21,322 bases of DNA, from IMG/VR virus record IMGVR_UViG_3300006922_000228, positions 1 through 21,322 of that record. One strand, 5' to 3'. Position 1 is the first letter of the stretch. Every line of letters begins with the position of its first letter. Source of the stretch: a virus. Made by a program: the position numbers and the translations under genes. The notes beneath the pieces are model-generated. The model made no database searches, had not been told where the DNA came from, and saw only the letters and a program-made list of their open reading frames with translations. Positions 1 through 21,322 of this stretch are shown piece after piece.

Positions 1-230
1 CTCAATGAATTAATACTGTTAGGTGGGAACATACCTTAACTAGATGTGGGATTCCTATTAACAATGACTCTAACAGGTATGGGAGAAAGTTGGGTATTAA
101 TAAGGTGTATTGTGGTTTTAGTTGCAACACGAATACTTAATGAGGACTAAATTCAAGTGCGTACCAAATCCTCGCCTTAATGAATTCTATACATGGCGTA
201 TAGATATAACTAGTAATCATAGGAGTAAAT
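1..230. other. Non-coding leader upstream of the first operon
   Basis: No convincing gene was found here. Frame 1 is open from the left edge to a TAA at 37-39, so the last 12 codons of an upstream plus-strand gene could lie there; the other two plus frames close within the first 15 bases. The rest holds inverted repeats (13-22 with 70-80; 186-192 with 198-204) and a purine-rich ribosome binding site (AGGAG near 221-225) for the gene at 231. It probably carries the promoter and 5' leader of the operon, but no strong -35/-10 pair was seen and no tRNA could be folded. Confidence 0.5.
186..204 (+). promoter_or_regulatory. Perfect 7-bp hairpin before the first operon
   Basis: TCTATAC at 186-192 and GTATAGA at 198-204 are exact reverse complements around a 5-base loop. 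The hairpin lies 26 bases before the ATG at 231 and about 16 bases before its Shine-Dalgarno sequence. It could be an operator, a processing site or a 5' RNA stabiliser. Only the symmetry is seen; the role is unknown. Confidence 0.4.
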
Positions 231-1271
231 ATGAAAGCTAAAGAACTAATGACTACATTGGAGAGATTGTTTGCTATTAAGCGAACTACTTATATACAAG
301 GCTCTCCAGGTGGTGGTAAGACTACCATTGTCAGAGATGTAGCCAAGAAACTAGGAGTAGAGTATGTAGAAGTACATATGCCTACTATGTTGGTAGAGGA
401 TATGGGTATACCTATGCCTCAGCCTGATGGCACTATCAAGTATGTGTTACCTGAGTGGATACCTGTTGAGGGTAGTAAGCATGACCAACAAGTTATTGTG
501 TGTTTAGATGACTTCGGTCAGGCTAGTCACGATATACAAAAGGTTGTAGCTAACATGGTACAAAGTGGTATCCATCATGGTAAAAAACTAAAGGACATTA
601 TGTTTATTATGACAGGTAATAAACAATCCGATAGGTCTGGTGTTGTATCAATGCTAAGACACTTGGGTAATAGAATGACTATAGTTGAGCTAGATACTAA
701 CATATCTAATTGGCTAGATTGGTCATCAGAAAATGGTGTTCACTCTCTTGTGCAAGGGTTTGTACAATTTAGACCAGACTTACTGCACATGTTTAACCCA
801 CAAAAAGAGCAAAGTCCTACACCAAGGTCTTGGGTTGAGGGTGTGTCAGCTATCATGGAGTTGTGGGGTAATGACTACATGAAAGATGGTAGTGTAGATA
901 TTACATTGCAAGAATGTATTATGGGGGCAGTTGGTGAGGGAGCTGGAGCTGAGTTTGTTGGTTTTCTACAGACTTATGCAGACCTACCTAAACCTGAAGA
1001 AATACTTAAGTCACCTAGTACAGCACTAATACCAGAGAAACCAGATGTTATGTGTGCCTTGTGTGCCTCTATTGGTACTATTGCCAATAAGTATGCTGAA
1101 AACTTTATCAAGTATCTAGACAGATTGTTTGATAATGGCAGAGCAGAGTATTCAATACTTGCACTGAAAATGGTACAGAGTAAGCATGGTATCGAGCCAT
1201 TTGTTGCAGTAGGTAAGCCTTATGCAGAGTTGATGGTTAAGAATGCCAAGTTTACACAAGCTGGTAGATAA
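231..1271 (+). CDS. MoxR-type AAA+ ATPase
   Basis: A 346-residue AAA+ ATPase of the MoxR/CobS-like type. Walker A is GSPGGGKT at residues 24-31, Walker B is the CLDDF stretch around D93-D94, and sensor 1 is N130 in an FIMTGN strand. R148 follows in a GNRMT context, as expected for an arginine finger. MoxR ATPases are known to work with VWA-domain partners to remodel or load metals into other proteins. Here a VWA/metallopeptidase gene lies two genes downstream, which supports that pairing. The start is set by AGGAG six to ten bases before the ATG. It is first in a compact operon, 18 bases before the next gene. Family assignment is firm; the substrate is unknown. It would act in the cytoplasm of the infected cell. 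Confidence 0.9.
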   Translation: MKAKELMTTLERLFAIKRTTYIQGSPGGGKTTIVRDVAKKLGVEYVEVHMPTMLVEDMGIPMPQPDGTIKYVLPEWIPVEGSKHDQQVIVCLDDFGQASHDIQKVVANMVQSGIHHGKKLKDIMFIMTGNKQSDRSGVVSMLRHLGNRMTIVELDTNISNWLDWSSENGVHSLVQGFVQFRPDLLHMFNPQKEQSPTPRSWVEGVSAIMELWGNDYMKDGSVDITLQECIMGAVGEGAGAEFVGFLQTYADLPKPEEILKSPSTALIPEKPDVMCALCASIGTIANKYAENFIKYLDRLFDNGRAEYSILALKMVQSKHGIEPFVAVGKPYAELMVKNAKFTQAGR

Positions 1272-1289
1272 ACTAGAGAGGAAAATATT

Positions 1290-2138
1290 ATGAAACTAGA
1301 TGAGAGAGCATTGTTAGTTCAGCTAAATGTATCACAGCCTACTATGAGTAAGCGTGATAAAAAGGTTAGTGAGCAAGTTGCTATGACTAACAACGCAATA
1401 ACAACAGCTGGTACTTATCATAAATCGTTACTACCTAACAATGAGTATCTTGGTAATGTACACAAGTATACTACGTTGGTTAGGCAGTTCTTTTACCAGA
1501 ACACTCTACCTTGGTTGAGTGATGGTACTATGATATTACCTACTGAAAACTATATGCCATTCATGGAAAGGTTTAATGAGATGAAAGTTGAATGGTTTAG
1601 ATTAGTAGATACTTTTATAAATCAATATCCACAGTTGCAGTTGAATGCACAAAGGGACTTAGGTAGTTTATATAACCCTGATGAATACCCTACTGAGTAT
1701 GAACTGAAACTAAAATTTGGTATGGACATGACTGTGCTACCTATACCCTCTGATGATTTCAGAGTAGACATTGCGAGTAGCGAGTTGGAAAACATACGCA
1801 AACAAGTTGGAGAGAAAGTAGAAAGTTCTATTGAAAATGCTATGCGTGAGGCATGGCAAAGACTATACGATAAGGTTAAACACATAGCTGATAAGCTGTC
1901 AGACAATAAGAATATCTTTAGGGATACTATGATTGATAACTTGAAAGAGCTATGTGATGTTCTAAAGCGTATGAATATCACCAATGATGTTAACTTGGAG
2001 AACATACGACAACAAGTTGACACAAAGTTGGCGAACAATAACCCAGAATCTCTAAGGCTAGACTTAGACTTGAGGAGACAGAAAGCCATAGAGTCTAGAG
2101 AGATTTTGAAACAGATGGAGGAATACATGAATGACTAG
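1290..2138 (+). CDS. Helical protein of unknown function, MoxR/VWA cassette partner
   Basis: A 282-residue protein with no catalytic motif I can name. The N-terminal half has mixed structure. From about residue 160 to the end it is rich in charged residues and looks mostly helical, with coiled-coil-like heptads. I recall similar proteins beside AAA+ and VWA genes in phages and integrative elements, in the manner of DUF3150-like proteins, but cannot verify the family. Its position between the ATPase and the VWA gene, and its 8-base overlap with the latter, suggest it is the third subunit or an adaptor of one complex. The start follows a GAGAGG-type ribosome site. Function is not assigned. Confidence 0.85.
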   Translation: MKLDERALLVQLNVSQPTMSKRDKKVSEQVAMTNNAITTAGTYHKSLLPNNEYLGNVHKYTTLVRQFFYQNTLPWLSDGTMILPTENYMPFMERFNEMKVEWFRLVDTFINQYPQLQLNAQRDLGSLYNPDEYPTEYELKLKFGMDMTVLPIPSDDFRVDIASSELENIRKQVGEKVESSIENAMREAWQRLYDKVKHIADKLSDNKNIFRDTMIDNLKELCDVLKRMNITNDVNLENIRQQVDTKLANNNPESLRLDLDLRRQKAIESREILKQMEEYMND

Positions 2139-3276
2139 AGATGAAAGAGTAAAGAGAGCTAAGACTCAGTTGATACTTCGCTATCCTTTTGTTGGTAATC
2201 TACTGTTCGGTATGGATATAGTATGGGACACAAGTATACCAACAGCTGGTACAAATGGTGAGGTAATTGTACTAAACCCTGATTATGTGGATAGTCTAAC
2301 TGATGAGGAGCTAGTGTTTCTTCTAGCACATGAGGTATGTCACCCTATGCTAGGACATTGTTTCAGACTAGAGACTAGAGATAGCTACAAGTGGAATCAA
2401 GCTGGTGACTATGTAATCAATCATATGCTTGATGAAGATGGGATTGGTAAAATGCCAGATGGTGGCTTACTTGATAGGAATATCTACGAACAAGGTAAAG
2501 GAAATACTGATGGTATCTACAATCTATTACCTGATACACCGAAAGATGAGCAAGGTATGGGTGGCGAGGGACAGCCACTAGATGATTGTATTGGTAACAA
2601 CAATGATAAACAAGCTAAGACACAATCTGACTTGGACAGACTATCAGCTAAATGGAAAGTTAAAGTGGCTCAATCAGCCAATGCTACTAAGATTATGGGT
2701 AAGATGACTTCTGGTATTGAGAGACTAGTGAATGAAGTACTTAGACCTAAAGTAGATTGGAAAGAAGTACTACTTAAGTTTATGCAAAAACTTCGTGTTG
2801 ATGATAGAACTTATGCTAGACCTAACAGAAGATTTATTACCCAAGGAATGTATATGCCTAGTGTTACAGGCATGGGACTAGGCGAGATAGCTGTGGCTGT
2901 TGATTGCTCTGGCTCTGTTGGTCAAGATGAGATAAACCAATTTAACAGTGAGATAAATACCATATGGCAAGACTTATTACCAAGTCGTTTACATGTGGTG
3001 TACTTTGATAGTGAAGTATCTCACTATGATGAATTCAATAAAGGAGATGATGTTGTAATCAAGCCTCATGGTGGAGGTGGTACAGCATTCAGCCCTGTAT
3101 TTGAATACCTAGATAAGAAAGATATACAGCCATTGGCTTGTGTGTTTCTTACTGACTTGTATTGTAGTGACTTTGGTAAAGAGCCTGAGTACCCTGTACT
3201 GTGGATATCTACCACAAGTGATGACAATATGAGAGTGCCTTTTGGCGAGATAGTCAGAATGCATGACAACAATTAA
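2131..3276 (+). CDS. Metallopeptidase-like/VWA domain protein (DUF2201 type)
   Basis: A 381-residue two-domain protein. Residues 1 to about 130 hold an HExxH zinc site (H67, E68, H71) followed by an AGDYVIN segment near 91-97, typical of the putative metallopeptidase domain found before VWA-like domains. The C-terminal part starts at about residue 250 with a MIDAS loop DCSGS (D258, S260, S262). A GGGGTAF stretch and an FLTD strand follow, matching later MIDAS positions. Families of this design are usually encoded beside MoxR-type ATPases, as here. Both the zinc and MIDAS ligands look intact, so a metal-dependent and possibly proteolytic role is plausible but unproven. GGAGG at 2118-2122 fixes the ATG, which overlaps the previous gene by 8 bases. 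Confidence 0.88.
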   Translation: MTRDERVKRAKTQLILRYPFVGNLLFGMDIVWDTSIPTAGTNGEVIVLNPDYVDSLTDEELVFLLAHEVCHPMLGHCFRLETRDSYKWNQAGDYVINHMLDEDGIGKMPDGGLLDRNIYEQGKGNTDGIYNLLPDTPKDEQGMGGEGQPLDDCIGNNNDKQAKTQSDLDRLSAKWKVKVAQSANATKIMGKMTSGIERLVNEVLRPKVDWKEVLLKFMQKLRVDDRTYARPNRRFITQGMYMPSVTGMGLGEIAVAVDCSGSVGQDEINQFNSEINTIWQDLLPSRLHVVYFDSEVSHYDEFNKGDDVVIKPHGGGGTAFSPVFEYLDKKDIQPLACVFLTDLYCSDFGKEPEYPVLWISTTSDDNMRVPFGEIVRMHDNN

Positions 3277-3298
3277 CTATAACCAAAGGAGTAAAATT

Positions 3299-4024: not shown

Positions 4025-4027
4025 ACT

Positions 4028-5086: not shown

Positions 5087-5090
5087 TAAA

Positions 5091-6715: not shown

Positions 6716-6878
6716 TGATATAACAGAAGTAATAGATGATTATTGTAGGAGGAAGTATGGTCATACTAATTGGGCATGGTACAACGAGGAGGAACACTTT
6801 GGAGTATCAGATGATGTTGCAACATTAGAGGGCAATATTATATTTTATTTTAAACCATATGAGGAGGAAAATGTATGA
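6705..6878 (+). CDS. Tiny hypothetical protein
   Basis: A 57-residue acidic, aromatic-rich protein starting at two ATG codons after AGGAGG and ending in YEEENV, which again lies over the ribosome site of the next gene. The reading frame is intact and overlaps both neighbours (11 and 4 bases). It contains an internal AGGAGG plus ATG in another frame (6747-6759). No known domain. Confidence 0.55.
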   Translation: MMSSDITEVIDDYCRRKYGHTNWAWYNEEEHFGVSDDVATLEGNIIFYFKPYEEENV

Positions 6879-7108
6879 CAATAGTAAAAAGTAATGACAA
6901 GGTAGAGAAACCAGAACACTACACAAGGTATAAGATTGAGCCAATAACATTTATTGTTGAGAATGAAATACCTTATTGTGAATCAAATGTAATCAAGTAT
7001 GTCTGTAGGTGGCAACACAAACACCCAACGAAACAAGGGCAGATAGAGGACTTGAAAAAAGCTAGACAATATTTAGATATACTAATTAAGAAAGCAGAAC
7101 AGGGGTAG
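6875..7108 (+). CDS. DUF3310 family protein
   Basis: A 77-residue protein matching the DUF3310 pattern: a KPEHY segment near residue 12, an IEPI core, an NVIKYVCRW segment near residue 39, and a C-terminal DLKKARQYLDILIKKA helix. DUF3310 proteins are frequent in phage early regions and are sometimes labelled nucleotide kinase-like, but no kinase motif is seen here and the function is not established. The ATG overlaps the previous stop and follows GAGGAGG. It precedes the DNA polymerase gene by one base. Confidence 0.85.
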   Translation: MTIVKSNDKVEKPEHYTRYKIEPITFIVENEIPYCESNVIKYVCRWQHKHPTKQGQIEDLKKARQYLDILIKKAEQG

Positions 7109-7109
7109 C

Positions 7110-8972
7110 ATGGATATAATAACTATAGATTTTGAAACCTATTATGATAGGGACTACTCTCTATCTAAAATGACAACTGAATCTTACATTAGAGACGAAA
7201 GGTTTGAGGTCATCGGGATGGCGGTTAAGGTAAATGACACACCAACACGTTGGTATAAAAATGTCCATGACGCTCTGGCTTCCGTAGACATGAGTAATTC
7301 TTGTATACTTGCACACAACACAATTTTTGATGGGTCTATACTTTCGTGGCACTACAACATTAATCCTAAGTTTTGGCTAGATACTATGTCTATGGCTAGA
7401 CCACTCCACAATGCAACTGTAGGTTGCTCGTTGGCTAATCTTTCCTCTATATATAAGGTAGGGAAAAAAGGAACTGAAGTTATCAATGCTTTAGGTAAAA
7501 GAGAGAAAGACTTTACTCCTAAAGAACTTGAGGACTATGCAAACTACTGTATTAATGATGTCGAACTAACTTACAAACTCTTTAAAATTCTAGTTAAAGA
7601 TTTTCCTAAGTCTGAACTTAAAGTTATAGACCAAACAATTAGAATGTACACCGAGCCACACATTGAACTTGACAAAAAACTTTTATGCAGCCACGCAGAG
7701 AAGATAAAGTCAGACAAACATAAACTTGTTGACAGTTTGGCTACTAAAATTGGAGCCCCACCTGAAAGCGTGGAAAAAATTTTGTCCTCTAATAATATGT
7801 TCGCAAAAATTTTGAAGAAACTTGGCGTGGAGCCACCGAAAAAAATTTCCGCCACAACAGGTAAAGAGACTTATGCATTTGCAAAGACAGACAAACAGCT
7901 TACGTCTCTAAGTCACCACGATAATCCAATCGTACGAGAACTTGTTGGAGCAAGATTGAATGTTAAGTCTACTATTGAACAGACAAGAGCTGAGAACTTA
8001 ATTAATGTAAGTGATAGAGGTAAATTACCAATCCTTTTAAATTATTATGGGGCTCATACAGGTAGGTTTAGTGGTGGGGATAAACTTAATTTACAGAACT
8101 TACCTCGTAATGGGGCTATTCGTAAAGCATTGACAGTACCAAAAGATAAAATGCTAATTGCCTGTGACTCATCACAGATTGAGGCTCGAATGGTTGCATA
8201 TATAAGCGGACAAAAAGATTTAATACAAGCATTTAAAGAAGGTAGAGATGTATACAGTGAATTTGCTAGTGAGATTTATAATAGGAAGATTACTAAAGAA
8301 GATAAACTAGAACGATTTGTAGGCAAGACTTGTATATTAGGGCTTGGTTATGGAATGGGGGCAGTAAAATTTAAAGATACCTTGGCATTAGGACAGGGTG
8401 GTATGTCAGTAGATATTGATATAAATGAGGCACAAAGAATTGTCAACTTGTATAGACAAAAAAACCATATGATTGTAATTTTCTGGGGAGTGTGTAATTA
8501 CGCATTGCGTGGGATACTACATAATAGGAAAGGCAGTATACATGATGACATGTTGGAATACGATTCTAGAGGAATCTTATTACCGAATGGACTTCGCATT
8601 AGATATCCAAAACTAAGGCGAACAGATAATGGGTTTGAATACATTTCTAACTCAAGAACTTATAAGAAACTACAACTTAATGGTACTCTTGAAGATAAGG
8701 AATGGACTAAAATCTATGGAGGAAAAGTGACTGAGAATATAGTACAAGCACTAGCAAGGTTAGTTATATCCGAACAGATGGTAGAACTAGGGAAAACACA
8801 CAAAGTTTTATTTCAAGTACATGATGAACTAATTTGTTTGGCTGACGCTAAAAACTATACAAAGACACAGAAACACGTTGAGACAATAATGTCTACTCCA
8901 CCTGGCTGGGCAGGCAATTTGCCTGTTGCATGTGAGAGTGGGGTGGGTAATAACTATGGAGATTGCAAATGA
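7110..8972 (+). CDS. DNA polymerase I (family A) with 3'-5' exonuclease
   Basis: A 620-residue replicative family A polymerase. The N-terminal exonuclease carries all three motifs: D7/E9 in IDFET, D74 in LAHNTIFD, and Y146/D150 in YCIND. Polymerase motif A is DSSQIEAR (D353), motif B runs through GKTCILGLGYGMG, and motif C is QVHDE (D572). No 5'-3' exonuclease domain is present, as usual for phage replicative enzymes. Aligned to E. coli Pol I motif B, the position of Phe762 is Leu (residue 410 here). That variant is known in many viral Pol A enzymes and is thought to affect speed and fidelity. An AGGGG site precedes the ATG. The enzyme would copy the phage genome with the primase-helicase and SSB encoded downstream. 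Confidence 0.97.
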   Translation: MDIITIDFETYYDRDYSLSKMTTESYIRDERFEVIGMAVKVNDTPTRWYKNVHDALASVDMSNSCILAHNTIFDGSILSWHYNINPKFWLDTMSMARPLHNATVGCSLANLSSIYKVGKKGTEVINALGKREKDFTPKELEDYANYCINDVELTYKLFKILVKDFPKSELKVIDQTIRMYTEPHIELDKKLLCSHAEKIKSDKHKLVDSLATKIGAPPESVEKILSSNNMFAKILKKLGVEPPKKISATTGKETYAFAKTDKQLTSLSHHDNPIVRELVGARLNVKSTIEQTRAENLINVSDRGKLPILLNYYGAHTGRFSGGDKLNLQNLPRNGAIRKALTVPKDKMLIACDSSQIEARMVAYISGQKDLIQAFKEGRDVYSEFASEIYNRKITKEDKLERFVGKTCILGLGYGMGAVKFKDTLALGQGGMSVDIDINEAQRIVNLYRQKNHMIVIFWGVCNYALRGILHNRKGSIHDDMLEYDSRGILLPNGLRIRYPKLRRTDNGFEYISNSRTYKKLQLNGTLEDKEWTKIYGGKVTENIVQALARLVISEQMVELGKTHKVLFQVHDELICLADAKNYTKTQKHVETIMSTPPGWAGNLPVACESGVGNNYGDCK

Positions 8973-9181
8973 CAACAAAAGAAAATGTAATGAAAATATT
9001 AGATGAAACAAAAAAAGTAGCAGAAGATAATGATGAAGTGACACATGTTTTTGTTTTGCTAAGAGTAGGTAATTCATATATTAGACATTCAACACAGATG
9101 GATGACACTATGAGTGAGTTAGGTAGGATTGATTTATTAAAGCATGATATAATTAATAGAATGAATCAACAACCAAAGTAA
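8969..9181 (+). CDS. Small hypothetical protein after Pol A
   Basis: A 70-residue protein whose ATG overlaps the polymerase stop (ATGA at 8969-8972). A TTG at 8963 in the same frame is possible but less likely. The predicted structure is helix, a short hydrophobic strand pair (HVFVLLRVG), then helix. No family recognised. The coupling to the polymerase gene and the TAATG junction with the nuclease gene suggest a replication-linked role, without direct evidence. Confidence 0.65.
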   Translation: MTTKENVMKILDETKKVAEDNDEVTHVFVLLRVGNSYIRHSTQMDDTMSELGRIDLLKHDIINRMNQQPK

Positions 9182-9843
9182 TGGAAAAACTTACACATAG
9201 CTATTCATCTATTAAGATGTTTGAACAATGCCCTAAAAGGTATCTACATCAGAGAATAAACAAAGATGTAAAAGATATGGGAAGTGAGGCTACTATATAT
9301 GGAGAGAGAGTACACAAGCAACTAGAAAATCGCTTGGCTCTCTCCGAGCCATTACCTAAAGAATCAATTAAGCACGAACAAGTTTGCAACACTATTGAAA
9401 AACTTACAGAAAATGCTGACTTGTATTTAGAACAACAGTTATGCCTTAATGAAAACCTTACACCAACAGGTTGGTATGACAATGACGCATGGTTACGCAG
9501 TATCCTAGATGTTCTTATCCTCAAAGATGACACAGCTATTATAATGGATTGGAAAACAGGTAAGAGGAGACCAGATTTTTTTCAGTTAGAACTGTTTGCA
9601 CTGCAAGTATTCAAGCACTATCCCAATATTAAAAAAGTTAAGTCTACTTTCGTATGGTTAAAGGAGGGTAAGATAGATACCGAGAACTTTAATCATGTCG
9701 ATACTAATATAATGTGGACTAATGTTTTATCAAAAATAGATAAGATTGACCAAGCCTATACATCTAATAACTTCCCAGCAAGACCAAGCGGTTTATGTAG
9801 GTATTGCCCAGCCAATAATATTTGCGAATATGCACGAATTTAA
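9181..9843 (+). CDS. PD-(D/E)XK nuclease, RecB/Cas4-like, with four cysteines
   Basis: A 220-residue nuclease of the PD-(D/E)XK superfamily. The motifs are H45 in GERVH, D110 in SILDVLI, D123 and K125 in IMDWKTG, and Q135 in the following QLELFAL helix. One Cys near the N-terminus (C17 in EQCPKRY) and three near the end (C206, C209, C215 in CRYCPANNIC) match the 4Fe-4S cluster layout of Cas4 and AddB-type nucleases. It probably acts as a DNA exonuclease in recombination, end processing or host DNA breakdown. Its start overlaps the previous stop (TAATG) with no clear ribosome site, so coupled re-initiation is likely. It forms a run with the VRR-NUC and helicase genes. No CRISPR array or other cas gene is present. 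Confidence 0.88.
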   Translation: MEKLTHSYSSIKMFEQCPKRYLHQRINKDVKDMGSEATIYGERVHKQLENRLALSEPLPKESIKHEQVCNTIEKLTENADLYLEQQLCLNENLTPTGWYDNDAWLRSILDVLILKDDTAIIMDWKTGKRRPDFFQLELFALQVFKHYPNIKKVKSTFVWLKEGKIDTENFNHVDTNIMWTNVLSKIDKIDQAYTSNNFPARPSGLCRYCPANNICEYARI

Positions 9844-9846
9844 TAC

Positions 9847-10223: not shown

Positions 10224-11733
10224 GTTTCCTAATAAAATTTTAGAGACTATTCCTGATTCCCGTGAATTAACGTACAACAACCACAAACTTGTTGTCACAC
10301 CTCATACCGTAGAGTCGGTTCAAATTTTGAAGAGAGTTGGTTTAAATGCTCCTAGTCCAATACTTTATTATTACGATTGGAGTGGGGAGTTTACTCCATA
10401 CCACCACCAGAAAATGACATCAGCATTTTTAACTATACATGACAAGGCGTTGGTGCTTAATGAAATAGGTACAGGTAAAACTCAATCAGCTTTATGGGCA
10501 TGCGACTACCTCATGGAAATAGGAAAGATTCGTAAGGTTTTAGTTATCTCACCATTGTCAACTTTAGAGAGAGTGTGGGGGGATAGTATATTTAAAAGTT
10601 TCCCACATAGACAAGCAGTAACTTTACATGGTACGAGTGCTAAAAGAAAACAACTATTAAAAACACAAGCGGATTTTTTTATTATTAATCACGATGGTTT
10701 CCAAATAATTGAACAAGAATGTAGAAACATGTTTGACGTTATCATTATAGATGAGGCAGCTGTGTTGCGAAACCCGTCTACTAATAGATTTAAAATTATT
10801 CGTAAGTTTATGGAAAGAGAAATCAATACAAGACTTTGGCTTATGACAGGTACACCTACACCTAATGACCCTACAGACGCATGGGCTTTAGCTAAACTTG
10901 TTGAGAGCCCATTTAATACTAAAACATATACAGCTTTTAGAGAATCGGTAATGCTTAAAATTAGTCAGTGGAAATGGGTACCAAGAGTTCAATCTATTGA
11001 TACAGTTAAACAAGTTTTATATCCATCAGTTAGATATACAAGAGATGAGTGCTTTGACCTACCAGAGACTGTGTTTCAAACTCGAAAGGTTGCTCTTACA
11101 TCAGACCAGACTAAACATTATAACAAAATGCTTAAACATTTTGCTACAGAATTAGAAGAAGAAGGAACAATTACTGCTGTTAACGAAGCAGTTAAACTAC
11201 AAAAACTTGTACAAATAAGTTGTGGTGTGGTGTACGGAGATGAAGGAGACCACATAGAAGTTGATTGTTCTCCAAGAGTTAACGTTGTTCAAGAAACAAT
11301 AGAACAAGTTGACGGTAAAGTTATAGTATTTGTACCTTTAACAGGTACATTAAGAATGTTAGAGAGAGCTCTCTCTAAACAATGGAGTGTTGCGGTAGTT
11401 AATGGAGAAGTATCAGCTACAAAAAGAAACAAAATATTTCATGACTTCCAAAACGCAGACAATCCTCACGTTCTTATTGCCCACCCAGCTACCATGGCAC
11501 ATGGACTTACTCTTACAAGAGCTAGTACTATCATATGGTATGGTCCTGTGACAAGCAATGAGCAATACATTCAAGCGAATGGAAGAATAGAAAGGATTGG
11601 TAAGAAACATGTATCAAACATTATACATATTGAGGCAACAGAGCTTGAGTATAAAATGTATGAACGGTTAAGGAGTAAACAGAAACTACAAGGTCTATTA
11701 CTAGACCTTATTAAGAAAGAGAGGAAAGAATGA
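10180..11733 (+). CDS. SNF2-family DEAD/DEAH-type helicase
   Basis: A 517-residue superfamily 2 helicase of the SNF2-like phage type. It carries a Q-like residue (Q77 in YHHQ), Walker A IGTGKT (96-101), motif Ia around LVISPLSTLERVW, motif II DEAA (191-194), motif III LMTGTP, and a C-terminal motif VI (QANGRIERIG) near residue 465. Such enzymes translocate on double-stranded DNA and can remodel forks or junctions. Adjacency to VRR-NUC suggests joint processing of branched DNA. The ATG lies within the previous gene, with a weak AGAGAAG site; later in-frame Met codons would cut into the helicase core. Its end overlaps the next gene by ATGA. A perfect 20-bp palindrome lies inside at 11359-11378. 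Confidence 0.93.
   Translation: MIVVEQAKALALKPKFPNKILETIPDSRELTYNNHKLVVTPHTVESVQILKRVGLNAPSPILYYYDWSGEFTPYHHQKMTSAFLTIHDKALVLNEIGTGKTQSALWACDYLMEIGKIRKVLVISPLSTLERVWGDSIFKSFPHRQAVTLHGTSAKRKQLLKTQADFFIINHDGFQIIEQECRNMFDVIIIDEAAVLRNPSTNRFKIIRKFMEREINTRLWLMTGTPTPNDPTDAWALAKLVESPFNTKTYTAFRESVMLKISQWKWVPRVQSIDTVKQVLYPSVRYTRDECFDLPETVFQTRKVALTSDQTKHYNKMLKHFATELEEEGTITAVNEAVKLQKLVQISCGVVYGDEGDHIEVDCSPRVNVVQETIEQVDGKVIVFVPLTGTLRMLERALSKQWSVAVVNGEVSATKRNKIFHDFQNADNPHVLIAHPATMAHGLTLTRASTIIWYGPVTSNEQYIQANGRIERIGKKHVSNIIHIEATELEYKMYERLRSKQKLQGLLLDLIKKERKE
11359..11378. repeat. Perfect 20-bp palindrome inside the helicase gene
   Basis: TTAGAGAGAG at 11359-11368 is followed directly by its exact reverse complement. 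It lies in coding sequence for MLERALSK. It has no loop, so it would suit a dimeric DNA-binding protein rather than an RNA hairpin. It may be chance arising from the codons used. Confidence 0.6.
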
Positions 11734-12134: not shown

Positions 12135-12805
12135 TGAGAAAAAAACTTTCAATAAAGAATTCTACTTTTGCTACCATCCGAGACGGTACATACGACAAAC
12201 TATCTGAAACAAGTTTAGATGTTGTATTCGTAGGGGCTAACCCAAATGTGTCTAAGATGTGGTACGAAAGTGAATGGTCAGACGATAGGGAGTCTACGAC
12301 TCCAGATTGTTTTTCCCTTGATGGTAAGGCACCTAACAAAGCTAGTGTGTCACCTCAGAATGATGTGTGTGCATTATGTCCACGCAACGCATGGGGTTCT
12401 AAGATAACACCTCAAGGGTACAAGGTTAAAGATTGCTCTGATATAAAAAGAGTAGCAGTTATCCTTGCTGACAAACCAAAAGAGGGTGTACATCTTTTGC
12501 ATATAACACCTTCATCTTTAAAAAATCTAAATACATATCATAAAACATTATCTATGAGAGGTATTGTTCCTGAGATATGTAGGACAACATTATGTTTTGA
12601 TGAGGAAGTTAGTTACCCAAGACTGAAATTTAAGTTCAGTGGGTTTAACAATGACAACATCCAGAAATATGTTGACACAATATTAGATTCTGAAGAAGTG
12701 AAGTTAGTTACGGGCGAGATATCTACACCAAAAACTACCGCAGATGATTTTGATTTTTCTGTTGAGGTAGGGTATTCAATCAATAACAAGTCGGAGGACT
12801 TATGA
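12134..12805 (+). CDS. Cys-rich protein of unknown function beside SSB
   Basis: A 223-residue protein with a cysteine set in residues 58-97: C59 in TPDCFS, the pair in VCALCPRNAWG, and one in VKDCSD. The spacing suggests a four-cysteine zinc or Fe-S site. The rest alternates strands and helices, including a VAVILADKP strand. I recall relatives in replication modules of Pol A phages, always unnamed. It starts in a TAATG overlap and ends in ATGA overlap with the SSB gene, so it is likely made along with SSB and could be part of the replisome or recombination complex. No catalytic motif was found. Confidence 0.75.
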   Translation: MRKKLSIKNSTFATIRDGTYDKLSETSLDVVFVGANPNVSKMWYESEWSDDRESTTPDCFSLDGKAPNKASVSPQNDVCALCPRNAWGSKITPQGYKVKDCSDIKRVAVILADKPKEGVHLLHITPSSLKNLNTYHKTLSMRGIVPEICRTTLCFDEEVSYPRLKFKFSGFNNDNIQKYVDTILDSEEVKLVTGEISTPKTTADDFDFSVEVGYSINNKSEDL

Positions 12806-13533
12806 AAATTACAACACCAGTGGGTATTGCTCACTATCCGTATATCAGTAAACCTGATACACAAGCAGTTGAGAAAGGGTATGCAAGTGTACCTATGTAC
12901 AAAGTAAACCTTTCTATACCGCAAGAAGAGGCCCAACCTTTAGTTAAATTAATTAAAGAGTTGCTCGTTGCTGGTATGAAATCTGAAAAAGATAAAAAAC
13001 CTAAAGCAAATTTAAAGCAAGCACCATTACCATTTAGTAATGAAGTAGATGAAGATGGGGAGGAAACAGGAAACATTATATTTAAGTTTAAATCTAAGTT
13101 TAAGCCTGCTGTATTTGATTCTAAGAAACAACCTATGATAGACCACAATATATTTGGTGGCTCAGAACTTAAAGTTGGGGGATTACTTGCATTTTATAGC
13201 TCGCCAGCTATTGGATGTGGTGTAACTCTAAGACTTCAAGCTGTGCAAGTTATTCAATATGTTGAAGGAACAGGTAGCGGAGCTGACAGTTTTGACTTTG
13301 AGGAAGAAGATGGGTTTGTGTCTGGTGCTGACCAGGCGGAATCAACAGAATCTCCAAACACACAGGAACAAGTTGATGTAAGCGTAAACATAGACGCAGC
13401 ACCTGCAGCAAAGGAAAAACCTAAAGCTAAACCTAAAGCTAAACCTGTACCTGTTGAAGAGCCTGAAGATGTACCTTCGACAACAACTAATGATGAGTTA
13501 GCTGCTGAAATAGCTAAACTTGTTGGGGAGTAA
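12802..13533 (+). CDS. ssb: Single-stranded DNA-binding protein (DUF2815/gp2.5-like)
   Basis: A 243-residue protein with an N-terminal OB-fold-like domain (about residues 1-155) matching the phage DUF2815 type. It opens KITTPVGIAHYPYISKPDT, has a central IIFKFKSKFKP strand, and ends with a GVTLRLQAVQVIQY strand. A long, low-complexity acidic tail follows, with a KPKA repeat and acidic C-terminal residues, as is common in SSBs that use the tail to recruit partners. GGAGG precedes the ATG, which overlaps the previous stop. It would coat single-stranded DNA during replication with Pol A and the primase-helicase. The gene symbol reflects function rather than homology to bacterial Ssb. Confidence 0.82.
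   Translation: MKITTPVGIAHYPYISKPDTQAVEKGYASVPMYKVNLSIPQEEAQPLVKLIKELLVAGMKSEKDKKPKANLKQAPLPFSNEVDEDGEETGNIIFKFKSKFKPAVFDSKKQPMIDHNIFGGSELKVGGLLAFYSSPAIGCGVTLRLQAVQVIQYVEGTGSGADSFDFEEEDGFVSGADQAESTESPNTQEQVDVSVNIDAAPAAKEKPKAKPKAKPVPVEEPEDVPSTTTNDELAAEIAKLVGE
13417..13446 (+). repeat. 12-bp tandem repeat in the SSB tail
   Basis: Two and a half copies of AAACCTAAAGCT are found at 13417-13428, 13429-13440 and 13441-13446. They encode KPKA KPKA KP in the flexible linker of the SSB. The exact nucleotide repetition suggests recent slippage or duplication. Confidence 0.85.
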
Positions 13534-13831: not shown

Positions 13832-13872
13832 GGGTAGTTGCGTTTTTTACATTTAAGTTTTCACAGCTACCC
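13832..13872 (+). promoter_or_regulatory. Inverted repeat before the primase-helicase gene
   Basis: GGGTAGTTG (13832-13840) can pair with CAGCTACCC (13864-13872) in RNA, eight Watson-Crick pairs and one G-U, around a 23-base loop. A competing short hairpin, AGAACG (13825-13830) with CGTTTT (13841-13846), is followed by more T and resembles a weak terminator. The two cannot form together. The gap between the HTH gene and the primase start is the longest inside the replication module, so a regulatory role is plausible but unproven. Confidence 0.4.
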
Positions 13873-13894
13873 TTATGACAAAGGTAAATCAAAT

Positions 13895-16756
13895 ATGAAT
13901 ATGTTGGAATTTTTTCAGCAAGTTTTACCAGACGAGGGATTTTATGTTACTACTGTAATTAACAAAGACGGTAGACGGCAGGGGTTTTTTAGGTCTAGGG
14001 AGGAACTTGCACAAGTATGTGAACGATTAGATAAAACTAATAACAATACTTATTTTGCAATATCTGCATTTAAACAGAAAGGAAACAGGAAACAAGATAA
14101 TGTAAGAGCTACTAAAGTAGTAGCTATAGATATAGATTGTGGTGGTAATAAACCATATGAATCTTGGAAAGAAGGTTTAAAAGCATTAGGGAAGTTTGTG
14201 TCTGACCTGAAGTTACCTAAACCTATGATAGTGCATTCAGGTAATGGCTTACATGTATACTGGGTGCTTGATGAAGAGCTACCGCCTGAGCAGTGGAAAC
14301 CATTAGCAGAAGCTATGAAGCAAGCTGCAATCCAAAAAGAATTTAAAATAGACGCTGGTCTTACAGCCAACAGTGCATTAGTGTTAAGACCTATAGAAAC
14401 TCATAATCCTAAGAATGGTAATAAAGTTAAGGTATTAGTAGAATCTAAGCCAACTAGTGTTGCACATCTGAAGACAAGTTTATCTTACTATTACGTTGCG
14501 GCCACAACGTCATCCAAAGGTCAAACTCGTGACAACTCGTTGTTAGATAATTTATCTACTAAGAGTGAACACCAGTCTGCTGTTGGTTCAGTAGTAGCTA
14601 GCAAGTGTAAACAAATAGAGTGGGCTATATCACATCAAGACAAAGTAGATGAGCCTTTATGGTACTCCCTTATAGGAGTAGCAGCTTTCTGCCAAAACCC
14701 TGAAACAACGGCTATAGAGTGGTCTAGGGGGCATTCAGGATATAGTGAGAAGTCAACTAAACATAAACTTCTTCAGTGGAAAGAGTCTGCTTCAGGCCCA
14801 ACTACCTGTGCAAAGTTTGAATCTAATAGACCTACAGGTTGTAGAGGTTGTAAGTATAAAGGTAAGATAGGTTCACCAGCTAGACTAGGTGTTCAGTATC
14901 AAGAAACTCCTATAATAAAACAAGCTCCTGATAAAGTAGCTAACGCTGTGCCTATGCCTAAACCATTTAAAAGAACTAAGGATGGTATTAAAATTACCAT
15001 AGATGATACAGATATAGACATATGTAAGTTTGATATATACCCAGTAGGCTACGGATTTGATGAGTCATTAGGGTACGAAACTGTAAGATTTCATTGGGAT
15101 AGACCACATATGGGGTGGCAAGAACTATCATTAAGGCAAGCATATCTTACTGATGGTAGTAGGGAATTCCCTAGTGCTATAGCAGACCAAGGTATTGTAC
15201 TGTACAATAAGAAACAAACGGAGTATTTTCAGCTTATGCTAAGAACTTACATGGAAGAATTAAGACAGATTCGCACCATGACAAATTTGTATTCTACTAT
15301 GGGTTGGAAAGAAAAGAACTCATCTTTTCTATTAGGTAATTTATTAATAAAAAGAAAACCTGACGGGTCTGTAATAGAGGAGAAGATAAACTTAGCCTCC
15401 ATTATACAAAAGCAAGGCTCAGATTTATATGGTGCTAAAGGTTCATTAGAACAATGGACTAATCTTACTTCTGTTATGGATAAGGCTAACCTTAAATCGC
15501 ATATGTTCTGTTTAGGTGTGGCATTCTCTGCACCCCTATATAACTTTACTGGACTTAAAGGATTGACAGTATCACTATATGGACCAACGGGCGGTGGTAA
15601 AACACTAGCACAGTATTGGGCTCAGTCTATATATGGAAGCCCTGAGAAGTTACACTTTACAGCTAAGTATACACAGATGGCTTTGTTCTCTCGACTTGGT
15701 ACATACGCTAACTTACCACTTACTATAGATGAAGTAACCATGATGAACGATAAAGAAGTAGGAGACTTTTGTTATTGGGTGTCACAGGGGCGTGATAAAG
15801 CAAGACTTAATAGAAATGCGGAAGAACGAGATGCTAAAACATGGGCTACACCTGTACTAGTATCTACCAACAAGTCTCTACAAAGTAAGCTGATTGCCTC
15901 TGGTCTGGACACAGACGCACAGATGGCTAGACTTTTAGAATTAACTGTCCCACAGACTGATGTCTTCACGAGAAACAGTGAGGTAGGCAAAAAAATATAC
16001 CAAGCTATCCATCAAAATTATGGTCATGCTGGTAGAGAGTTTATTAAAAAGCTAGTAGAGATGGGGGAAGAAGGTATTCAATCTATTATTGCAGAAGCTT
16101 CTGATAATTTTAGTAAAAAATATAGATGTAGTTTTGGCGGACAAGAGAGATATTGGGAACAAGCTATTATCCTTGCTGACTTATCTATGAGCCTAGCTAA
16201 AGAATGGGGGTTAATAGACTATGACTATGAGAAGTCTACTGAATGGGTACTCGCACAGATAGGAGCTATCCGTAGAACTGTACAAGAAAACCAAGTAGAT
16301 GCGTTTGATTTAATTGCAGAATATATGGCTGACTCAGCTGATACATCAGTAACTATTATGCATACAACAGGACAAAAAGCACAACCAGACTTTGCTAGAA
16401 TACCAAGAGGAGATATAAGAATAAGATTAGATGTATTTAGAAAGTCAGCTGCTGATGCGTTTGATAAAGGCACTATGATGATTGACAGAACTCATTTTAG
16501 AAAGTGGTTATCTATGCGTGGTGCAGACTATAAGACATTCAAACAGGAACTTGTTGCTGAGAATGTAGTCGCTACTCCTAAGTCAGAGAAAGCATCACTT
16601 GGTAAAGATACTCCTGTGAAGTTAGCACAGACTTATGTTATTGGATTTAATCTTACTCACCCTAGATTTCAGAGTCTATTAGATAACGCTGATATTGAAG
16701 CAGATGACTTGTCATATGGACAATTACAGGTTCTCGACAAAAAAGAAGGGGTCTGA
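13895..16756 (+). CDS. Primase-helicase (AEP-like primase plus AAA helicase)
   Basis: A 953-residue multidomain replication protein. Residues about 70-180 fit an archaeo-eukaryotic-type primase/primpol core: D79 and D81 in AIDIDCG, then a SGNGLHVYW strand with H120. A primase-C-terminal-like helical region follows, with cysteines C305, C316 and C319 in a CRGCKYKG context. The C-terminal half is a DUF927-like/SF3-like helicase with Walker A GPTGGGKT (563-570) and Walker B LTIDE (D612, E613). It would unwind and prime DNA for the Pol A. I chose the ATG at 13895, which has AAGG 10 bases upstream. The longer reading from a TTG at 13838 would translate the inverted repeat and has poor spacing. Domain boundaries are approximate. 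Confidence 0.88.
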   Translation: MNMLEFFQQVLPDEGFYVTTVINKDGRRQGFFRSREELAQVCERLDKTNNNTYFAISAFKQKGNRKQDNVRATKVVAIDIDCGGNKPYESWKEGLKALGKFVSDLKLPKPMIVHSGNGLHVYWVLDEELPPEQWKPLAEAMKQAAIQKEFKIDAGLTANSALVLRPIETHNPKNGNKVKVLVESKPTSVAHLKTSLSYYYVAATTSSKGQTRDNSLLDNLSTKSEHQSAVGSVVASKCKQIEWAISHQDKVDEPLWYSLIGVAAFCQNPETTAIEWSRGHSGYSEKSTKHKLLQWKESASGPTTCAKFESNRPTGCRGCKYKGKIGSPARLGVQYQETPIIKQAPDKVANAVPMPKPFKRTKDGIKITIDDTDIDICKFDIYPVGYGFDESLGYETVRFHWDRPHMGWQELSLRQAYLTDGSREFPSAIADQGIVLYNKKQTEYFQLMLRTYMEELRQIRTMTNLYSTMGWKEKNSSFLLGNLLIKRKPDGSVIEEKINLASIIQKQGSDLYGAKGSLEQWTNLTSVMDKANLKSHMFCLGVAFSAPLYNFTGLKGLTVSLYGPTGGGKTLAQYWAQSIYGSPEKLHFTAKYTQMALFSRLGTYANLPLTIDEVTMMNDKEVGDFCYWVSQGRDKARLNRNAEERDAKTWATPVLVSTNKSLQSKLIASGLDTDAQMARLLELTVPQTDVFTRNSEVGKKIYQAIHQNYGHAGREFIKKLVEMGEEGIQSIIAEASDNFSKKYRCSFGGQERYWEQAIILADLSMSLAKEWGLIDYDYEKSTEWVLAQIGAIRRTVQENQVDAFDLIAEYMADSADTSVTIMHTTGQKAQPDFARIPRGDIRIRLDVFRKSAADAFDKGTMMIDRTHFRKWLSMRGADYKTFKQELVAENVVATPKSEKASLGKDTPVKLAQTYVIGFNLTHPRFQSLLDNADIEADDLSYGQLQVLDKKEGV

Positions 16757-16807: not shown

Positions 16808-16824
16808 AAAACTTTACATATCAT

Positions 16825-19800
16825 CTAGTGATTATCTATTGCGTCTTCGTATGCGTCTAATAAAAATTGTGTATCAGGTCTGATATTTTTAGGAGCAAAC
16901 TTTTTGTATCGTTGAGCCGCTGGTAGTGACCAAGCTCTATATGCTCTTTGTGCTGAAGGCAACCAACGTTTTAATTCAAACTCAGTACCTCTATGGTCTT
17001 GGTTATGTTCTCTAACATCTCGTTCTACCTGTCTCATTCTGTCTCTATCTCCTACTAGTTTTGCTTTAACCCAAGCATCGGTATAACCTTTTTTAATTGC
17101 TTTAACATAACCATCAGTTTGTTTACTCATCCTTATAATATCATTTTGATAAGTAGCTCCTGCTGGGTAGAAGTTTAAAAATCTAAAGAAAGTCTGTAGA
17201 CCGCTTACATCTTCTTGTAATATCTTACCTTGTTTGTTTGTTATATGTCCGTTTGCCATATAAGATATACCATCTGTTACACCTCTTAATGCACCGAATG
17301 GTTGGTTCTTAAATATATCAGACCAAGTTGTTGTATCATCTTTAAGTCCTATAGCTTCCGCACCTTGTCGTGCTATTAAATTTGCTGTAACTATTGATTG
17401 TTCTGCTGCAGAATACACAGGCCCAAAAAAGTTTTTAACTTCTTGCCAGTTGTCTGAGCCTGCCTTACCAAGCCCCGTTAGTGGTACCAAATCACCGAAG
17501 CCTAATCTTGTAGATATGGTAGCTCCAAGATAGTAATCCAATAGACCTCTCATAGCTATTGGTGATGCTCCAGGTGCAAGTTCTTCTATAAGTTCTGTTA
17601 ATTCTTTTTCTACAGTTCCCATTTTAATACCTCGTGCTTGCACTAATGTATCTATTAAATCTGTTATATCATCAGCAAACGGTAAACCTTTTAATCCTGA
17701 AAGTAACACAAGCATACCAAGTAATATTAATCTTTCTTTCGGAGCTAAGTTTTTTATAAGTTCTACAGTAATAATTACAAATTGTTTATACATAAAGATG
17801 TATTGAAGTACATTACCACGAGCCATTTGTGGTCTGTTAAACATTCCATATTCACCTTGAGATGTGTTAACAGCTCTTATAGCAAACTGTTCTGCATTTT
17901 TAGAAGCTTCTTTTAAACTCTGACCAGCATTTTGTAGCTTATCTCTTTGTAATCTGTACGCTGCTAAGAAAGTTGTTCTTCTGTTTAACTGCTCTGTGTA
18001 TGAGAATATTTTCATCCATGCTCTGACACCAGCAGCTAATTGTTTCTTAGCCATCAATCCACCTCTAGCTGTACCAACAAGAGCATTAAACTGTGCCGCT
18101 TGAAGTACACCTTGTTCAGTAGCTTCAAGTAATACTTGAGCTTCGTCTTGACGTATACCGTATTTACTCCGTAATGCTTTACCTTCTTTAGGGTCCGCTA
18201 CTTTTTGTACATGAGACAAGTTCTCTAGGTTAAAGTTCTTCATATTTCTTAACGCCATAGTCATAGCACTAGCCGACCTACCCATACCAAAGCCACCACC
18301 ATATCCAGTTTTAGCGTTATACGTAGATAAATAAGGAATACTATGGGTGACCATAGACATAGTATTTATAATACCTGTTGCAAGAGAACCACCAAGTTGT
18401 GTAGTTACTGTTAATAATTTTATAGCAGAACCTGCTTCACCTGAAAGCATATCTTCTGTAGATACGTCTATGTTTCCTGCTCTACCATAGAAATCTAGTA
18501 GCCCACTAGCTATGTCTTTATATCTATTACCTTCACCTTCAGTAGCAACTTGTATTGACTCTCTGCCTCTACCACTACCTTTAAATACAGTAATGGTTTC
18601 ACCTTTCTCCGCACTATATCTATACTGGTTTGCATAAGCATCATACTGTTGTTGTGCAATTTGTATCTGCTCATCATTACCTGTTTGTTCTACTCGCTCC
18701 ATGTTTTCTCTAAGTCTGTTTAGTTTTTTCTTATTACCTTTACTCCATAGTTTTACATCAGTGGTATATTTATTTAATTTGTGTGAATAAAAAGTTTTAC
18801 CCGCTGCGTGAGACATAGTTTCTAAATGTTCTGATACACTTCTTACAACATCTGCGTCCCAACCAGCTGTGCCTGAACGTTGTAAACTTTTTCTTGCTCT
18901 ATCACTTTGTTTTGTTAAAGCAGTAATTATTTTCTTTCGTTGCTCTGGATTTAAAGAACCTACTACTCTAGCCATAATGCTAGTAAATTCATTTAGATTC
19001 ATCTCACTAGATACGGGTGCACTTTTTGACACAGCAGCTGTTCTTGCTTCTAAAGTAACTTCTACTTCTTGTAAGTTATTGTCTACAAATTTATATTTTG
19101 TATCACTAAAGTCTTGTGTTAACTCTTCTGTTAAAGCTCTTGCATCTTCTGCAGTAGCAACTTGGTAGTACGGTAAAACATTTTTAGTATGGTCAGCTAG
19201 CTCCACTTCATTACCATCATTATCAAAAGCTCTAAGTGTTACTTGAAATTTACCACGCCTAGTAAATGGTACATACCCACCTAGTATAGTTCTCTTTGCA
19301 TTAAATTCATTATTAGTATTTTTTAAATCTAGTATTAATAAGTTTTGTATTGTTTCTGTTACTGTTTTTGCGTCAGCTTTTTTATTATTATAGATTTCAT
19401 GTAGTTGTTGCAGACTATTTACTACATCAGTAAACTGTTCACTGCCATCTTGTAATACAGGTACTTCAGTGGTATTACCACTAACCCAGTCTTCAAGTTT
19501 TTTTGGTTCCCATAAAGCACGATTAACGTCCCTTATAAATCTTTCTGCTTTATCTTGAGCTTTAGGGTCATACTTAATACCTACACCTTCTAGCGTAGCT
19601 CCTTCAGAATAAATCTCTTTGTATTTATTTAGGATAGTTCTTGCCGCAGCTACATCTTGAGCACTAGCTCCTATGCCACGACTGTCTTCTGCATACTCTC
19701 TAACCATTTGTAATATATCTGTAGTTTCTGATACGGTAGCTTCTAGGTTAGACTCTAATAAATCTTTAGCAGCTTCATCTACAGCGTTTCTATTTTCTTG

Positions 19801-21322
19801 GTAAATTCTATAAACTCTATCGCTAATAGCACCAGGTTCAAATCTAAAAGGTCTACCATCTGGATTAGGTGTACCGTCTTCTAGAAAATCTAGTTGAACA
19901 TCAAGACCTTTTTCAAAAGTTTCTTTACTTATAATATTATCAGCTTTCATTTTTTCAAAAGCTTTTAAATCAATAACTGGATTACCTTCTCCGTCTTTTG
20001 TTATTAGTGACGGAGCGTTTCTTATATCAGCGTCACTATTAATTTGACCGCTTTTAAACAATGCACCAAATGCTAGTAGTTTACCTGCTATTTCTAGCTC
20101 TTGTGCTGTAGGTCCGTTTTGCCCAAACAAACCAGAGTAATTTGCACTATGGGTAAACTTAGTCATATCACCATATATCTGTTGATACTTTCTTGTCCTT
20201 GCTGTTTGTCCTTGGAACAATGCAAAGATTTTTGATAAGCCTTCACTACGCAAAGCTACGTTATCTAATGTTTGAAACTCTTCAAGTATCCTACCAAAAG
20301 CTCCTGATGCATCACCTTGACCATACATACGCCTACCAATTTTTTTAGCTCCATCGTAATATTCTTTATAGTTAAATAGATTACCTGATTTGTTAGTAAG
20401 TCTTTGTGCCATACTTGTTAAACCTTTAGCTGCTACAGTTGAGTGTGTTTCGACAAAGTAACGACCATACTTACTTTCGTTTCTTAGTCTGTTCATGTTC
20501 TCCATCATTTTCCCTACTGTTACAACACCACTACCGCCTGTACGCAAGTTCCTGCGAGCTTGGAATATTAAGTATCTTGTCATATCATCTTGGAACTCTA
20601 TGCCAAATGCATCTCGCATAAAGTTTTTAATTGCGTTCCAAAATCTTGCTAGTATATGTGAATCAACATAGGCAGCATGGTCAGCTAATGCTTCTTCTAT
20701 AGCCTCATACTTTTCTTGCCCATTGTTTATATTCATATCAGCTATTAATCTTATAGCTGGGTCACTATTGTAGATGTCATCAAATACTAACTTGAGTCTA
20801 TTCATTGGTAAGAAAGCTCTAAAGCCAAAGTGTCCTAGTGCTTCGTGCCCAATAATGCTCCGCAGCATTTGCTCATCTTTAACAAAATCTGTAAATATTA
20901 TTATCTGGTCACCAAAAGAATAACCTGATGCATTGACTGTATCAAAATCATCTCTAGCTTCTGTTGCTCTTTTATACAACGCAGGGTTTGTTTCTTGTAA
21001 TTCTTCTCTGTTTTTAACTACAGTAACTGTAGGTTTAGTTTTAAGTTTTCTTAATACTTGTTTAACTATTAGTTCTGCTTTACCTTTAGGCACAGGGTCT
21101 TTTATTTCTTGCCCATCTGTGTATCTATAATACTTACCATCTTTACCATCAGCTTCATTAACTATGTCATTGACAGTAGGAGCTGTTTGTTTATTGTTTA
21201 TGGGTGCAGGTTTACGAACTTTCATACCACTTTCAGTTGTTGATTGCACAAGATTTAAATTACCATCTTTATCAAAGTAATCTTTTAGTGGTACTCCTTG
21301 GACAATCGCTTCTTTGTTTGCA
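16825..21322 (-). CDS. Giant polyvalent virion-type protein (PLxRFG-like), 5' end beyond window
   Basis: At least 1,474 codons from a GTG at 21249; the frame stays open to the window edge, so the gene is almost certainly longer and this is its C-terminal part. Near the visible N-terminus an IIGHEALGHFGF helix gives a zinc HExxxH site (H135, E136, H140, numbered from the GTG), followed by YEAIEEALADH, which could supply a third ligand. This fits the metallopeptidase domains known from phage polyvalent proteins. The middle is long and mostly helical. A hydrophobic segment lies around residues 1150-1190 and an RLGFGDLVPL stretch near 1250 resembles the PLxRFG region. Such proteins are thought to be packaged in the virion and ejected with the DNA. 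Its strand, opposite to the replication genes, suggests the structural module. Exact class is tentative. Confidence 0.8.
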   Translation of the reverse strand, partial: ANKEAIVQGVPLKDYFDKDGNLNLVQSTTESGMKVRKPAPINNKQTAPTVNDIVNEADGKDGKYYRYTDGQEIKDPVPKGKAELIVKQVLRKLKTKPTVTVVKNREELQETNPALYKRATEARDDFDTVNASGYSFGDQIIIFTDFVKDEQMLRSIIGHEALGHFGFRAFLPMNRLKLVFDDIYNSDPAIRLIADMNINNGQEKYEAIEEALADHAAYVDSHILARFWNAIKNFMRDAFGIEFQDDMTRYLIFQARRNLRTGGSGVVTVGKMMENMNRLRNESKYGRYFVETHSTVAAKGLTSMAQRLTNKSGNLFNYKEYYDGAKKIGRRMYGQGDASGAFGRILEEFQTLDNVALRSEGLSKIFALFQGQTARTRKYQQIYGDMTKFTHSANYSGLFGQNGPTAQELEIAGKLLAFGALFKSGQINSDADIRNAPSLITKDGEGNPVIDLKAFEKMKADNIISKETFEKGLDVQLDFLEDGTPNPDGRPFRFEPGAISDRVYRIYQENRNAVDEAAKDLLESNLEATVSETTDILQMVREYAEDSRGIGASAQDVAAARTILNKYKEIYSEGATLEGVGIKYDPKAQDKAERFIRDVNRALWEPKKLEDWVSGNTTEVPVLQDGSEQFTDVVNSLQQLHEIYNNKKADAKTVTETIQNLLILDLKNTNNEFNAKRTILGGYVPFTRRGKFQVTLRAFDNDGNEVELADHTKNVLPYYQVATAEDARALTEELTQDFSDTKYKFVDNNLQEVEVTLEARTAAVSKSAPVSSEMNLNEFTSIMARVVGSLNPEQRKKIITALTKQSDRARKSLQRSGTAGWDADVVRSVSEHLETMSHAAGKTFYSHKLNKYTTDVKLWSKGNKKKLNRLRENMERVEQTGNDEQIQIAQQQYDAYANQYRYSAEKGETITVFKGSGRGRESIQVATEGEGNRYKDIASGLLDFYGRAGNIDVSTEDMLSGEAGSAIKLLTVTTQLGGSLATGIINTMSMVTHSIPYLSTYNAKTGYGGGFGMGRSASAMTMALRNMKNFNLENLSHVQKVADPKEGKALRSKYGIRQDEAQVLLEATEQGVLQAAQFNALVGTARGGLMAKKQLAAGVRAWMKIFSYTEQLNRRTTFLAAYRLQRDKLQNAGQSLKEASKNAEQFAIRAVNTSQGEYGMFNRPQMARGNVLQYIFMYKQFVIITVELIKNLAPKERLILLGMLVLLSGLKGLPFADDITDLIDTLVQARGIKMGTVEKELTELIEELAPGASPIAMRGLLDYYLGATISTRLGFGDLVPLTGLGKAGSDNWQEVKNFFGPVYSAAEQSIVTANLIARQGAEAIGLKDDTTTWSDIFKNQPFGALRGVTDGISYMANGHITNKQGKILQEDVSGLQTFFRFLNFYPAGATYQNDIIRMSKQTDGYVKAIKKGYTDAWVKAKLVGDRDRMRQVERDVREHNQDHRGTEFELKRWLPSAQRAYRAWSLPAAQRYKKFAPKNIRPDTQFLLDAYEDAIDNH

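Follow-up and report, generated by a model that had tools for sequence, protein, structure and literature searches.

Absence of GATC from a record of an uncultivated phage, with loss and retention of the motif among its relatives

Analysis of the virus record IMGVR_UViG_3300006922_000228 raised the question of which process removes a common 4-base motif, GATC, from a phage genome. The entire record (21,322 bases, 36.0% GC), which is referred to here as the window, comes from an uncultivated phage. A first-pass annotation made from the letters alone had described a total absence of GATC. Counting confirmed this: the window contained no GATC in any flanking context, compared to 55.1 sites expected from a maximal-order Markov model based on 3-mers (Poisson probability of zero, about 1e-24). 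With both strands counted, GATC ranked first in depletion among all 256 4-mers (z of -12.6). Non-palindromic 4-mers were not equally depleted; the worst of them, AACC/GGTT, had a z of -5.1. The remaining 23 orderings of the letters G, A, T, and C all occurred, with ACGT, TCGA, and CATG at 0.52 to 0.67 of expectation. GANTC sites were present, as had been reported, and showed no notable depletion (44 versus 53 expected). Phage T7, which has six GATC sites, goes 21,330 bases without one; a single window of this size therefore cannot tell total from near-total loss, but longer relatives can.

To hold the proteins and the codon usage of each gene constant, synonymous codons were permuted within each of 22 chosen open reading frames (ORFs; 20,448 bases) in 500 rounds. 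The shuffled sequences contained on average 39.3 GATC sites (standard deviation, 4.6) and never fewer than 26, so the observed zero is far below the codon-shuffled controls as well as the Markov expectation. Among 18 control 4-mers, 12 were within 2.5 standard deviations of the shuffles (GATG, GATT, GATA, CATC, TATC, AATC, GTAC, CTAG, AGCT, TGCA, AGTC, and CATG), GACT exceeded expectation (z of 3.2), and GCGC, CCGG, CGCG, TCGA, and ACGT were under it (z of -2.5 to -4.9). The same 22 ORFs revealed the codon choices involved. Aspartate was encoded by GAC at 22 of 22 positions ahead of a C-initial codon, compared to 120 of 422 elsewhere. Isoleucine was encoded by ATC at 0 of 58 positions after G, compared to 45 of 368 elsewhere, and TC never followed a codon ending in GA (0 of 310). 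The aspartate pattern had been noticed before, and all seven plus-strand examples then given read GAC followed by C; for the minus-strand example near 20761, the letters GACCC were present, in whichever reading frame. These results indicate that the depletion of GATC is not due to amino acids or codon usage. Composition and codon usage as the cause were thus ruled out.

Three further motifs were absent from the window (counts are given from here on as observed/expected): GCGC (0/13.2), CCGG (0/6.9), and CGCG (0/5.4). GGCC was reduced (5/18.7). These absences and this reduction had been missed in the first-pass annotation.

Searches of IMG/VR with the polymerase, the primase, and the large protein of the window found 24, 80 (kept from 94), and 49 loci, respectively. 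Within the window's own clade (98 to 100% polymerase or 98 to 99% primase identity), six of seven records had no GATC in the DNA examined, and the seventh (G002) had a single site at its second base, the record starting with AGATCT. A polymerase relative at 85% identity (L007) also lacked the motif (0/16.5). The sister branch, with primases 88 to 91% identical to that of the window, retains GATC; its two longest records carry the motif at 0.37 to 0.39 of expectation (G019, 80/205; G021, 66/177). The "long" selection originally proposed is therefore unnecessary, since so close a branch still has the sites. Beyond the sister branch lies a second GATC-free branch with G007 (0/159 in 53,970 bases) and G015 (0/139 in 49,378 bases), which, going by length, are probably near-complete genomes. 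G008, a near-copy of G007, and G004 lacked GATC as well (0/97 and 0/92), as did the more distant G016 (0/117) and G014 (0/54); G012 had one site (1/49). Near-identical records such as G006, G007, and G008 are not independent.

The distribution of the GATC-free state was mapped onto a tree built from 81 primase rows (80 loci and the window), obtained by quick maximum likelihood with Shimodaira-Hasegawa-like approximate likelihood ratio support only. Changes were counted over 80 scored rows, 25 with zero or one GATC and 55 with more, leaving out a single row in which fewer than 10 sites were expected. The GATC-free state (zero or one site) required at least five changes. When a third state was added, namely, GATC present with at most one RGATCY, the number rose to 14; this third state was found in 19 of the 74 rows having at least 20 expected GATC sites. 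In two otherwise GATC-keeping genomes, G042 and G044, the longest GATC-free runs were 12.3 and 17.6 kb, which possibly reflect regional exchange with GATC-free relatives.

Comparison of aligned positions revealed how completely the sites were lost. When 14 window ORFs were aligned by codon with those of the sister branch, none of the 20 GATC sites of G021 persisted in the window, compared to 34.6% for all 4-mers, and none of the 21 sites of G019, compared to 34.1%. The protein was identical over the touched codons at 8 of the 20 and 9 of the 21 lost sites. Where GATC-free and GATC-bearing genomes share DNA blocks of 80 to 95% identity, none of 42 GATC sites persisted, compared to about 22 expected from all 4-mers; these 42 sites are not independent, as genome pairs and blocks overlap, and the blocks of 80 to 85% identity contain 38 of them. 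In blocks of 70 to 80% identity, 1 of 637 sites persisted. GATC-free and GATC-bearing branches share stretches of DNA up to 94% identical, and the few GATC sites that one side has there are absent from the other. For instance, G007 (26674 to 27937) and G021 (52459 to 53725) share a block of 1,267 bases with 91.8% identical DNA, while their primases are 82% identical; this block is probably a recent exchange. The closest blocks, such as this one, contain only three GATC sites in all. From the shared absence of GATC, the first-pass annotation had concluded that the replication and virion genes have a common history. This does not follow, because selection across the genome yields the same picture, and it is further weakened by the similar stretches shared by branches with and without GATC.

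Motif absences in the rest of the family were examined by screening 448 plain and degenerate palindromic motifs against order-2 expectations; for each record, at most 14 motifs with at least 6 expected sites and at most 10% of expectation were listed. G025 lacked RGATCY (0/60) while 108 other GATC sites stayed (about 28 would be RGATCY at the expected share). The same was found for G030 (0/60, with 93 other sites) and G042 (0/51, with 29), and G044 had a single RGATCY (1/54). The non-palindromic AGATCC, which is part of RGATCY, was also missing from G025, G030, and G042, in contrast to 20 copies in G019 and 15 in G021, so the pattern is not one of avoiding palindromes in general. Further absences were CCWGG, GGWCC, and YACGTR in G025 (0/82, 0/50, and 0/42) and in G030 (1/73, 0/46, and 0/33) and GCGC, CCGG, and CGCG in G021 (0/34, 0/24, and 0/14). 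The absent motifs GATC, GCGC, RGATCY, CCWGG, GGWCC, YACGTR, and CCGG are targets of Type II restriction enzymes.

With a probability of roughly two-thirds, the agent that purged GATC is an orthodox Type II restriction enzyme of the hosts with the 4-base target GATC, the specificity of MboI, DpnII, and Sau3AI. Both the enzyme as the agent and its action in the hosts of this phage are what we infer as the likeliest account. Incoming unmethylated phage DNA carrying GATC would be cut by such an enzyme, and variants losing the motif by small, often synonymous, changes would survive until no site remained. A genome without GATC would then require neither a methyltransferase nor an inhibitor against that enzyme. 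In Rusinov et al. (2018, PMC6286503), by far the greatest part of site avoidance in phages is reported to involve orthodox Type II sites, and complete or near-complete elimination of sites is reported for about one-tenth of viral genomes. Tested by criteria of that type, the window lacks the site against a Markov expectation, the absence is not driven by codons, and the absent motifs match Type II specificities. The first-pass annotation had proposed selection by a GATC-specific restriction system or a methyl-dependent process. The codon shuffles, the close relatives, the recurrence on the tree, and the further motifs support the selection; they do not show which of the processes was at work.

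The first rival explanation, which we regard as unlikely, is that the phage evades Dam/MutHLS mismatch repair or some other Dam-related interference. MutH would nick or cut fast-replicating, under-methylated phage DNA at its GATC sites, and these sites would be counter-selected. GATC is the MutH target, and a window without the motif in every flanking context would suit such a process. MutH leaves unexplained, however, the branches that lack RGATCY alone among the GATC contexts (G025, G030, and G042) and the absences of GCGC, CCGG, CCWGG, GGWCC, and YACGTR. Context-specific and degenerate absences such as RGATCY are selected by Type II enzymes, whereas MutH needs only GATC. A restriction enzyme therefore fits the phage family better than mismatch repair does.

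Eight known phages served as yardsticks (50,000 bases or the whole genome), and they bear on mismatch repair in both directions. Three were strongly depleted of GATC: Puniceispirillum phage HMO-2011 (0/157), Vibrio phage CHOED (1/179), and T7 (6/143). Strong depletion was not seen in the other five: CRP-1 (164/192), HTVC033P (149/183), RHph_TM3_14A (122/169), Rollin (190/197), and Slicky01 (112/191). The recorded host of HMO-2011, Candidatus Puniceispirillum marinum, is alphaproteobacterial and thus belongs to a group that is not known to have MutH, so the total loss in this phage speaks against mismatch repair. The retention of GATC by the Pseudoalteromonas phage Slicky01 does so as well, as its host group has Dam.

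Several observations weigh against restriction as the agent. T7 and CHOED are depleted not only of GATC but also of CCWGG (2/87 and 1/100), so the absence of further motifs is compatible with mismatch repair. The hosts of both phages possess Dam and MutH, that of T7 also Dcm; losing GATC together with CCWGG in such hosts makes mismatch repair possible for the window itself. The absence of GCGC is uncoupled from that of GATC: the GATC-bearing sister branch also lacks GCGC (0/17 and 0/34), and GCGC is present in the GATC-free G016 (42/56), G012 (21/16), and G014 (5/22). This uncoupling and the missing CCWGG of T7 and CHOED weaken restriction and raise mismatch repair. In addition, all other relative loci surveyed, including those that keep RGATCY, carry GATC at only 0.13 to 0.80 of expectation. 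A milder general pressure, Dam/MutH-like or exerted by several enzymes, may underlie this shortfall across the family, which is a further point in favor of mismatch repair. A scan of species genomes for the portal protein with two peptide patterns yielded only six relatives among 40 pattern matches, at 31 to 39% identity (three in Solimonas, two in Lentisphaerae, and one in Methylophaga), and matches in phage collections by polymerase, portal, and terminase were all below 60% identity. Finally, no GATC-cutting enzyme was seen in profile searches of 50 related records (17 with zero or one GATC and 33 with more) taken from 74, several of them fragments: MutH (PF02976) and DpnII (PF04556) were each found in 0 of 50, with DpnI (PF06044) not searched. 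The window was outside these 50 records and was included only in a follow-up DpnII search of 15 records.

The literature holds cases read in terms of Dam. PMC5014478 discusses the absence of GATC from phiX174 in connection with mismatch repair; phiX174 resembles the window in having no GATC and differs in being a single-stranded DNA phage of 5.4 kb. In a Psychromonas prophage, GATC is rarer than in the host, and PMC12570018 interprets this as pressure toward minimizing regulatory interference. T7 resembles the window in its strong depletion of GATC, which in T7 goes along with that of CCWGG, but its loss of GATC is incomplete. The Staphylococcus phages K and fRuSau02, which are Twort-like, are GATC-free in print.

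HMO-2011, a distant relative of the window by its portal, shares the total loss of GATC and differs in its replication genes (Toprim primase and DnaB-like helicase). In the same 50,000 bases (NC_021864, 1 to 50000), CCWGG was also absent (0/77), as were AGMKCT, RAGCTY, GCMKGC, and GCRYGC. One search for open-access papers pairing "HMO-2011" with "GATC" found none, and the main text of a paper on HMO-2011-type phages (PMC9038755) contains neither "GATC" nor "restriction." Rhizobium phage RHph_TM3_14A, another distant relative, has a similar cassette (polymerase, RecB-like nuclease, VRR-NUC, SNF2, and a primase homologue). It also lacks a whole motif, which is GANTC, but retains GATC. In its first 50,000 bases (MN988472), GANTC was 0/143 by order 2 (87 expected by a higher-order model), unlike in the window, and CCWGG (2/135) and RGATCY (0/35) were likewise scarce.

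A second rival is methyl-directed restriction of the DpnI type (Type IIM), in which the phage would be methylated at GATC in Dam hosts and then cut in hosts that cleave the methylated motif. Rusinov et al. (2018, PMC6286503) report too few GATC sites in every one of the 46 phages with hosts encoding the Type IIM enzyme. This explanation requires two kinds of host, and we consider it quite improbable.

It is very doubtful that the phage itself encodes a GATC-specific nuclease that degrades host DNA, the absence of sites being its sole self-protection; if true, this would make the motif absence an offensive rather than a defensive trait. The window holds two nuclease-like genes (9181 to 9843 and 9822 to 10223), but both were found in six of six GATC-bearing genomes compared. 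An initial DpnII search gave candidates in 4 of the 50 records, all among the 17 GATC-free ones (G002, G004, G005, and G015), but these gave no score at an E value of ≤10. The MutH and DpnII results likewise speak against such a nuclease, and no gene among the matches listed was shared by every GATC-free record and missing from the rest, several records being fragments. A phage-borne MutH- or DpnII-type enzyme was accordingly rejected on these 50 records. The Dam (PF05869), D12 (PF02086), and N6/N4 (PF01555) methyltransferase profiles were each found in 0 of the 50 records, with cytosine methyltransferases (PF00145) not searched; a phage-borne methyltransferase letting the 33 GATC-bearing records retain the motif was thus also rejected.

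An effect of composition or codon usage and an artifact of assembly or library preparation, such as DNA digested at GATC, can practically be dismissed, although G002 starts with its sole GATC. No codon shuffle fell below 26 sites, the same state occurs in records whose contig names point to different metagenomes, it extends over 54 kb and shows in codon choice, and no GATC lies at the ends of the window or of eight other records with zero or one site. Breakage of contigs at GATC was rejected because these ends, unlike that of G002, lack the motif.

The ORFs of the window were scanned against Pfam (20 ORFs) and PHROGs (10 ORFs), with some small ORFs left out. An AAA ATPase (231 to 1271, plus strand; PF00004, phrog_1297), an unassigned protein, and a DUF2201 metallopeptidase-like/VWA protein (2131 to 3276, plus strand; PF13203 and PF09967) lie one after another within 231 to 3276, with homologues in six of six GATC-bearing genomes compared. 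These genes are followed on the plus strand by a DUF3310 protein (6875 to 7108; Pfam match) and a family A DNA polymerase (7110 to 8972; PF00476, phrog_17), in which a 3'-5' exonuclease domain (PF01612) matched weakly, just below the cutoff. The two nuclease-like genes mentioned above, also on the plus strand, encode a PD-(D/E)XK nuclease (PF12705) and an endonuclease-like protein (phrog_93), respectively. Further plus-strand genes encode an SNF2-type helicase (10180 to 11733; PF00176 and PF00271), a T7-like single-stranded DNA-binding protein (12802 to 13533; PF21265 and PF10991), and the DUF927 primase/helicase-like protein of 972 amino acids (13838 to 16756) on which the tree is based. On the minus strand, 16825 to 21249 encode the C-terminal portion of a giant protein that probably belongs to the virion and whose frame is open to the record end. 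In 13 relatives where no contig end cuts it, this frame has 2,264 to 3,273 codons, and the protein distantly matches PLxRFG-domain/structural proteins of F116-like phages. No tRNA genes were found in 15 pieces covering five records.

GATC-free phages are already in print (phiX174, K, and fRuSau02), so the principle is published and the present case is a new example of it. The contribution made here is a set of related genomes in which GATC is lost and retained in different branches. Removing every copy of a common 4-mer from about 54 kb takes numerous changes and leaves a strong mark of the equipment of the hosts. Because the set of absent motifs varies by branch, it may record the restriction repertoires of the hosts of uncultivated phages, and the readable record may include the difference between 4-base and 6-base specificities of overlapping targets, such as GATC and RGATCY. 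The motif sets thereby give testable predictions of hosts.

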